51,154 nt of DNA from assembly GCA_007693955.1 (NCBI GenBank), contig RECR01000083.1:1-51154 (forward strand). The letters are read 5' to 3'. The translations under genes were made by a program, and so were the position numbers. The notes beneath the pieces were generated by a model. It saw only the letters and a list, made by a program, of their open reading frames with translations, was not told where the DNA came from and did no database searches. Shown in pieces: positions 1 to 2,728 of this stretch (the first letter of the stretch is position 1; each line of letters starts with the position of its first letter). This DNA is from Gloeocapsa sp. DLM2.Bin57. Its GTDB lineage: Bacteria > Cyanobacteriota > Cyanobacteriia > Cyanobacteriales > Gloeocapsaceae.

Positions 1-870
1 TGCCATCCGTCACTTTTAATATCTCGATAGCTAGACTCAATCCAAGAGCGAAAACCATACCATAAAGCATTACTTTGTTTTGGTTCTAAATCAGTAACAA
101 TTAACCAAGGATCTGGATAACCTTCGTCCCATCTTGCCAATAAAGTACAATCCAGGGGATTGCTGCGAAAACAAGTAACATTACCTGACCAACTGATTCC
201 TGTTTTTTCCACTACTGTACCTAAACATTTCCATTCTTGTTCTCCGGCGATTTGATAAGTTCCTTGATGATTTATTCTCTCCGAAAGGATGCCAATTCAA
301 AGTGCAAATTTCTTCAAACAGCCAATCGGCGTATAATCCTCTATCTGCCGAAACGATAACTTGCATTTCAGGAGGTACTGTATCTTTCAATGATTGAAAC
401 AGATGAAGCCAATGAGGTTTCCACGAGCCTTTTTCTGTACCTTTAACTATTTTCCAAGCAACTGGAATACCACAACCTTGATAGAGAACATGAAGAGACA
501 ACACCGTAAAATTCTGACCAACCGACGTTGCATCTATTGCTAATGGCAACCACTTTTCCTCACTATTCCATAAACTTAAAATCCATGAGAGTAAAGGTGC
601 AAAGCATTTATCGACATCTAATTCTTTCCTTTTTTTTCCCTTCTTTGCCTTACTATCCTGATACCATTCTTTTAGTCTTTGTTTGACTGTATTATTTTTT
701 TCTCCATTTATTTTGGCGATGAATTCAGATACTCTGGTAAGACTACTCGAATTAGTTATTACCATCCCAAAGCTCCAAGTAGCCAAGCCTGCTACTTCAG
801 GCAATGATAAATCACAAAAGTGATTAGAAACAATTTTTGACCAGTCTTTGAGATATTGATTATGTAACAT
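1..870 (-). pseudogene. IS4-like DDE transposase, frameshifted and running off the left edge
   Basis: The N-terminal part reads intact from an ATG at 870 and includes AIDATSVGQNF (first Asp region) and SADRGLYADW (second Asp region), typical of IS4-superfamily DDE transposases. Near position 280 the frame shifts by one base. Reading on in the next frame to the window edge restores family-like sequence, including DPWLIVTDLEP and RSWIESSYRDIKSDGW, which would carry the catalytic Glu region. The gene is therefore broken by a single-base indel and its 3' end lies outside the window. The ATG sits only 3 bases past the stop codon of the four-helix-bundle gene, so little or no upstream IS end is visible. 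Programmed frameshifting is possible in some IS families, but I see no obvious slippery heptamer. Confidence 0.75.
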
Positions 871-873
871 AGC

Positions 874-1514
874 TTAACCAATTAACCAATTTTCTGGATG
901 ATTAATCATTTTGACTAATCCACTTAACACTTGATTATAATTACTATATAATTCTCTTCCTTGTTCGGTAGATATATAGTCACATTTAACCGCAAATTTG
1001 AGCCAAACCTGAGTTTCTGCGGCTTCTGCTTCAGAGTCATTTAGCTCACGGGGTGACACAGAAGTCCTGATGTAGACAGGGTATGGGGTATCGGGTGTGG
1101 GGTGTGGTGAATTTATTTGGCGCTATTCAACGATATAGAAGTATTTTTCTCCTCAAAGAGACCAAAAATACCATAAATGGAATTTTAAATTAAATAATCC
1201 GTTGACTTTTTTCCCTACACCTACCCCCTACACCCTACCCCCTGCCTTGAGTTCAACGAAAGTTGTCACCCCGTCAGGTCATTTAGTTTAGCTACAAATG
1301 ATCCTTTATACCGACGTTTTCTCCAGGCTTCGGCAAAATTAGTACAAACTGACCGGGATGAACGTCTAATCTGGTCAGTCAAAGAGTATCTTTCTTCTAT
1401 GGGGAACTGCTGGGATAATTCAAAAATAATCATGGCTGTTTCAAACCCTTTTTGATAGATGACCAAATCTTCATGAGTTTTAATGGTTTTTTGCTCTTTT
1501 TCTCCCTTGTCCAC
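874..1514 (-). pseudogene. four-helix-bundle (S23-type) protein gene interrupted by a MITE
   Basis: The 5' part (1514 to 1278) encodes THEDLVIYQKGFETA and RRSSRSVCTNFAEAWRKRRY, the hallmark of the TIGR02436 four-helix-bundle family. The 3' part (1035 to 874) encodes SEAEAAETQVWLKFAVKCDY and ends NHPENWLIG. A 233-bp element separates the halves. Deleting it with one copy of the 9-bp duplication joins KLND to SEAEAAE in frame and gives a normal protein of about 132 residues. The insertion is thus the only lesion and looks recent. The family's function is unknown. The start shown is a GTG that lies in repeat-derived DNA, so the first dozen residues may not be native. Confidence 0.85.
1045..1277. 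mobile_element. 233-bp MITE with terminal inverted repeats and 9-bp target duplication
   Basis: The left end reads CTCACGGGGTGACAC (1045-1059) and the reverse complement of the right end (1263-1277) reads CTGACGGGGTGACAA, 13 of 15 identical. The flanks are GTCATTTAG at 1036-1044 and again at 1278-1286, a perfect 9-bp target-site duplication. No open frame inside could encode a transposase, so it must be moved in trans. G-runs lie just inside each end (1079-1102 on plus, 1242-1213 on minus). The inner part is AT-rich. The parent IS family is not recognised; the nearby IS4-like transposase is only a guess as its source. Confidence 0.85.
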
Positions 1515-1600
1515 TTTCCCCCCTTGTCTCCCTTGTCTTACCTCATGATAACTTTTCTGTAAAAAACCTACACTTGTGAGCTCTCCCCCTCTCCTCTTAA
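1501..1600. repeat. partial copy of the intergenic repeat family (one end only)
   Basis: The stretch containing CTTGTCCACTTTCCC, then GTCTTACC, then GTAAAAAACCTACACTTGTG matches, in order, the right-hand end of the repeat copy at 28033-28227 (CTTGTCCACTTTCCC, GTCTCACC, GTAAAAAACATACCCCTG). Only this end is present; the other side runs into the four-helix-bundle gene, whose GTG start lies in the repeat. Confidence 0.55.
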
Positions 1601-1699: not shown

Positions 1700-2728
1700 A
1701 TGCAAACGTACGATAATCCTACTGTAAAATACGATTGGTGGGCAGGGAATGCTCGATTTGCTGAACTATCAGGTTTATTTATTGCTGCTCACGTAGGTCA
1801 AGCAGCGTTGATAACCTTTTGGGCTGGGGCTTTTACCCTGTTTGAGATTTCCTGGTTTGACCCTACTTTACCTATGGGAGAACAGGGATTGATTCTGTTA
1901 CCTCACCTAGCGACTCTCGGTTTAGGTGTGGGAGAAGGGGGCCAAATCGTTGATACCTACCCTTACTTTGTCATTGGTGCTGTACACTTGATTTCTTCTG
2001 CTGTTTTGGGTGCAGGTGCGTTATTTCATACCTTCAGAGTTCCCGCTGATCTTCAAGAAACCGAAGGTAGAGCGCGCAAGTTTCACTTTAGCTGGGATGA
2101 TCCTAAACAGTTGGGAATTATTCTCGGACATCACCTTTTATTTTTAGGTGCGGGTGCATTATTACTAGTAGCTAAAGCTATGTACTGGGGTGGATTGTAT
2201 GATAGTGTCACTCAGACTGTACGGGTAATCACTGAACCAACTTTAGATCCTTTGACTATCTACGGTTATCAAACCCATTTTGCCACTATTAATAGTCTGG
2301 AAGATTTAGTGGGTGGTCATATCTACGTGGGGATAATGTTAATTGCAGGTGGTTTATGGCATATTATCGTACCACCTTTACCCTGGGCGAGAAAAGCTTT
2401 AATCTTCTCTGGAGAGGCGATTCTTTCCTACTCCCTCGGTGGTATCGCTTTAGCTGGATTCGTAGCGGCTTATTTATGTGCGGTTAATACCCTCGCTTAT
2501 CCCGTTGAGTTTTACGGTGCTCCTTTAGAAATTAAACTGGGAATTGCTCCCTATTTTGCAGATAGCGTAGAGTTACCTTTTGGACAACATACCGCTCGTT
2601 GTTGGTTAGCTAATGCACACTTTTTCTTAGCTTTCTTCTTCCTACAAGGGCATTTATGGCACGCTTTACGAGCTATGGGTTTTGATTTCCGTCGCGTAGA
2701 AAAGGCTTTAAATTCTCTAGAAGTCTAG
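1700..2728 (+). CDS. isiA: iron-stress chlorophyll-binding protein IsiA (CP43')
   Basis: IsiA is a six-helix thylakoid chlorophyll a antenna that forms rings around photosystem I under iron limitation and also dissipates excess light energy. The 342-residue product is full length for the family. Hydrophobic helices are visible near residues 25-50, 87-112, 138-160, 205-224, 240-263 and 303-325, with the His-bearing segments expected of CP43/Pcb proteins and no large lumenal loop between helices five and six. The context separates it from a Pcb light-harvesting protein: flavodoxin and isiC follow directly, the classic iron-stress operon. A candidate Fur site lies about 45 bases upstream. The Shine-Dalgarno sequence is weak. 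Confidence 0.93.

Follow-up and report, generated by a model that had tools for sequence, protein, structure and literature searches.

A 233-bp non-coding element interrupts a gene near the start of contig C83 of the cyanobacterium Gloeocapsa sp. DLM2.Bin57 (the host, G000), a 3.45-Mb draft genome in 138 contigs. This raises the question of what kind of mobile element it is, which transposase moved it there, and whether that transposase still resides in the same genome. In addressing these, we refer to the entire stretch of 51,154 nucleotides analyzed here, i.e., contig C83, as the window.

The element and the gene that it interrupts

Direct reading of the window recovers the element along with the features listed in the Table. 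Its two termini, CTCACGGGGTGACA and CTGACGGGGTGACA, are equal in 13 of 14 bases, with a mismatch at base 15 accounting for the 13 of 15 initially counted. The 9-bp target duplication (TSD) GTCATTTAG is perfect on both sides, and no ORF of at least 60 aa is confined to the element, which thus lacks a transposase gene. These observations bear out the original prediction on the structure of the element. Such an arrangement occurs once in the 51-kb window: there is no second pair of 9-bp direct repeats around ends matching at 12 or more of 14 positions with a spacing of 60–600 bp, and the end motif is not found elsewhere in the window beyond the two termini. Likewise, 60 single-base shuffles of the window yielded zero structures combining 9-bp repeats with matching ends. 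The element is short, is bounded by terminal inverted repeats and a TSD, has no transposase, is present in more than one copy and shares its ends with an autonomous element (see below), confirming that it is a MITE.

The target gene codes for a four-helix-bundle protein, and its two halves match the Pfam model PF05635 (23S_rRNA_IVP) at profile positions 1–63 and 60–103, respectively, with the second half on its own scoring just below the gathering score. The frame starting at 1514 reaches a stop at 1266 after three MITE codons, resulting in a truncated protein of 82 residues, the final three of which are read from the MITE. As had been predicted, removal of the MITE together with one TSD copy restores an uninterrupted frame, here of 132 aa. 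The joined flanks align gap-free with the uninterrupted G026 homolog over 378 bp (75%), and the homologs in six other genomes (G026, G025, G010, G008, G035 and G006) run without interruption through the empty site, an alignment that had been proposed as a check on the insertion.

Table. Features at the beginning of the window (positions are those of the window)
Feature	Position	Strand	Remarks
Broken IS4-type transposase gene	3..870	-	Frame broken near 181-212; weak match to NF033591, 29 bits
3' part of interrupted 23S_rRNA_IVP gene	874..1035	-	
Left TSD copy, GTCATTTAG	1036..1044	.	Direct reading
233-bp MITE	1045..1277	.	Inverted-repeat ends and 9-bp duplications; second full copy at G000:C122:186-418, 98% identity
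Left terminal inverted repeat, CTCACGGGGTGACA	1045..1058	+	
GGGTATG-type heptamer array, 4.1 copies	1079..1107	+	Inside MITE
CCCTACA-type heptamer array, about 4.6 copies	1213..1243	+	Inside MITE; pairs with left array in predicted fold
Right terminal inverted repeat, CTGACGGGGTGACA	1264..1277	-	Identical to ends of IS4-family ISs in other cyanobacteria
Right TSD copy, GTCATTTAG	1278..1286	.	Direct reading
5' part of interrupted 23S_rRNA_IVP four-helix-bundle gene	1287..1514	-	Frame crosses TSD

The parent IS4 family across cyanobacteria

An exact search for CTGACGGGGTGACA in 388 cyanobacterial genomes, with the reversed motif as the control, retrieved over 100 sites as compared to about ten for the control. 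These come from 32 of the genomes, several of which contain facing pairs. In a separate search for the end motif with 3 mismatches allowed, the counts were close, at 143 for the motif and 113 for the reversed control; hence, the exact sites alone were used. Pairs about 1.27 kb apart enclose a single frame of 380–387 aa, which is intact in G359, G029 and Nostoc cf. commune and broken in G034. These represent full-length ISs of 1267–1273 bp with perfect 9-bp TSDs, with three copies in G359, while the Nostoc version is located on a plasmid and shows 1–2 changes in its ends. The transposases of ISs with these ends score 241 and 258 against NF033591 (transpos_IS4_2; cut-off 152), and visual inspection of the G029 transposase revealed the Y-R-E-K signature. 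By these sequence features, the transposase of the ISs ending in CTGACGGGGTGACA is assigned to the IS4 family.

In contrast, facing pairs separated by 234–251 bp are MITEs comparable to that in the window in both ends and size, namely those of G359 (244 bp), G029 (251 bp) and G272 (234 bp), with 9-bp duplications in G359 and G272. Their interiors, however, differ from that of the window MITE. On its two sides (103 and 154 bp), the G029 MITE is 98% identical to the corresponding ends of the G029 IS, indicating that it is a direct internal deletion of that IS. Thus, the sequences show origin by internal deletion in this IS4 family for the G029 MITE, but not for the window copy, which is untraceable beyond its ends. 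The latter has terminal repeats and 9-bp duplications in common with the full-length ISs but differs from them in having no transposase, an interior unrelated to any of them and one change in its left end (CTCACGG). As just the terminal ~16 bp are held in common, we place its parent to the family level and no further. The search for a full-length IS with the same ends, suggested by the original prediction, succeeded in other cyanobacteria but recovered no intact version from the host.

Taken together, we posit that the window element is very probably a MITE of the cyanobacterial IS4 family with CTGACGGGGTGACA ends and 9-bp target duplications, and that it was moved in trans by the DDE transposase of this family. 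That transposase would have inserted this copy into GTCATTTAG of the 23S_rRNA_IVP gene, giving rise to the TSD and shortening the protein. The transposition presumably proceeded by cut and paste, a mechanism known for the IS4-family members IS10 and IS50. The helper may since have been lost from the host or may have been supplied from outside. The unrelated interior, the absence of an intact helper in the host assembly and a second copy without matching duplications speak against this reading.

A potential alternative source of the transposase is the gene at window 3–870, which adjoins the MITE and is detected, weakly, by the same broad NCBIfam profile. Yet this gene is itself broken, shows no tblastn match to the helper transposase, has no CTGACGGGGTGACA-type end in the window and is of another subgroup than the likely helper, being a neighbor outside the MITE. 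We therefore consider mobilization by this other IS4-type transposase highly improbable.

Copies in the host genome and the fate of the helper

A search of the host genome with the MITE detected, as anticipated, other copies: the full copy on C122 and a right-half copy at C33:29840–29944. The further expectation of flanking 9-bp duplications failed for the C122 copy, as the duplications on its two sides do not match. No base differs between the window and C122 copies in the first ~190 bp; what sets them apart is a single heptamer-array base and, mainly, a short block close to the right end. At the latter (window 1255–1262 and L037 200–210), the segment between CAAC and GTTG reads GAAAG in one and CTTG in the other, which could reflect a change in a small hairpin loop.

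The near-identity of these two copies offers good evidence for recent spread and, along with the perfect duplication and the open flanking frames, supports the earlier suggestion that the MITE moved fairly recently. One might instead invoke an older insertion with a duplication that happened to escape decay, given that a same-genus genome holds just an 82-bp piece of the family. The perfect 9-bp duplication, the open frames and the zero differences over the initial ~190 bp speak against this, and we see it as improbable. A scan for the left end in the genome collection, from which the host's own records were possibly left out, returned no match.

The right MITE ends on C122 and C33 both abut CAAGAATTC inside an IS200-type tnpA (Pfam Y1_Tnp), and the tnpA copies at the ends of C68, C90 and C130 display the same site uninterrupted, i.e., as an empty site. 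Two halves of one tnpA are found at L037 (G000:C122) 1–199 and L003 (G000:C33) 1590–1846, with the same 9-bp copy CAAGAATTC, while the other flank of the C122 copy is CTAAATATG, which does not match it. This pattern points to a two-element transposition, a rearrangement or a mis-assembly. A single insertion cannot place the same right end on both tnpA halves, whereas this outcome would follow from an intramolecular event to which two copies contributed their right ends. Hence, we tentatively raise the possibility, which we do not favor, that the paired ends of two separate MITE copies jointly attacked one target. If true, a low-copy MITE would have rearranged the chromosome even though no autonomous IS is now found.

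The original prediction also held that an active helper probably exists in this genome, and it is here that this assembly lends it no support. With the G359 transposase as the query, tblastn returned nothing from the host (E≤0.001), as against six fragments in the same-genus genome G001. Similarly, a search of the host with the IS4_2 profile gave nothing above the cut-off, only weak matches, the best of which is the broken gene beside the MITE and the rest remote transposases. The helper family is nevertheless present in G001 and many other cyanobacteria. We also considered the PF01609 transposases of the host (on C66, C74, C131, C72 and C95) as potential helpers; these were set aside as no terminal repeats with 7–12-bp duplications were found around them.

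In the host, each of the eight exact end sites could be assigned, whether to a resolved MITE, to a relic or to a solo end. The relic is a 480-bp element at C90:7438–7917 (L039 3439–3918) that has a perfect 14-bp end on either side and lacks matching duplications; both ends are similar to the G001 IS, and by this resemblance it is a deletion relic of the IS. The solo end, at C34:61, likewise resembles the G001 IS. The most straightforward interpretation is that the autonomous IS was once present in the lineage of the host and has since been lost, with the MITEs remaining.

The main alternative to such a loss is that the host does contain an active helper that is absent from the draft assembly, a common fate of repeated ISs. 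The near-identical MITE copies and the perfect TSD do imply that a transposase was available not long ago, and a draft in 138 contigs leaves some room for it. However, an unassembled multicopy IS would be expected to leave outward-facing ends near contig edges. Such is the case in G001, where several IS ends face contig edges (C84, C144, C194 and C207), but none of the eight exact ends in the host is so placed. Combined with the lack of any transposase fragment in the tblastn and IS4 profile searches, this makes a resident helper unlikely, if still the readiest competitor to loss. On the preferred reading of loss, the host would present a case of near-identical MITE copies in which the autonomous IS survives only as relics.

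Internal arrays, comparable elements and neighboring features

The transcript of the MITE is predicted to fold into a long stem formed by the two opposed heptamer arrays, with z values of -4.9 and -4.1 for the two strands. The left MITE end with heptamers occurs once in G001 and the right end with heptamers once in G017; from this, the array seems to have traveled together with these ends. Several apparent matches to the MITE in the host (on C93, C50, C41, C81 and others) were rejected as copies because they comprise heptamer arrays only.

Among known systems, Nezha has been described as a MITE of cyanobacteria (Zhou et al. 2008, as cited in PMC10969869), and, according to PMC3049150, its mobilization by ISNpu3-like elements has been proposed. 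By description, it and the window MITE are alike in that each is a MITE from cyanobacteria ascribed to an IS whose ends match its own. Nezha is shorter than the window MITE and has longer terminal repeats. A MITE of Porphyromonas gingivalis contains a minisatellite (PMC4596501) and, again by description, resembles the window MITE in having tandem repeats inside. It differs in its host and in that the window MITE carries its heptamers in two opposed arrays. In the literature searched, the end sequence was not found in a relevant context. Overall, there is good support for reading the window element as an ordinary MITE of a type already known. Its interest lies in linking a set of cyanobacterial MITEs to one IS4-family transposase through common ends and 9-bp duplications; otherwise, it represents routine IS biology that aids annotation.

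As for the surroundings, the broken transposase gene lies right at the start of the contig, and a few bases separate its start codon from the point where the interrupted gene ends. On the other side, window 1700–2728 codes for what we take, from the translation, to be a Pcb/IsiA-like chlorophyll-binding protein; such gene content, like the relatives of the window, marks it as cyanobacterial. Between the latter and the interrupted gene, a segment of ~70 bp (window 1526–1598) shares 95–100% identity with edge sequences of at least seven other contigs (C7, C10, C14, C17, C39, C63 and C125), which makes it probably the terminus of a repeat element that interrupts the assembly.
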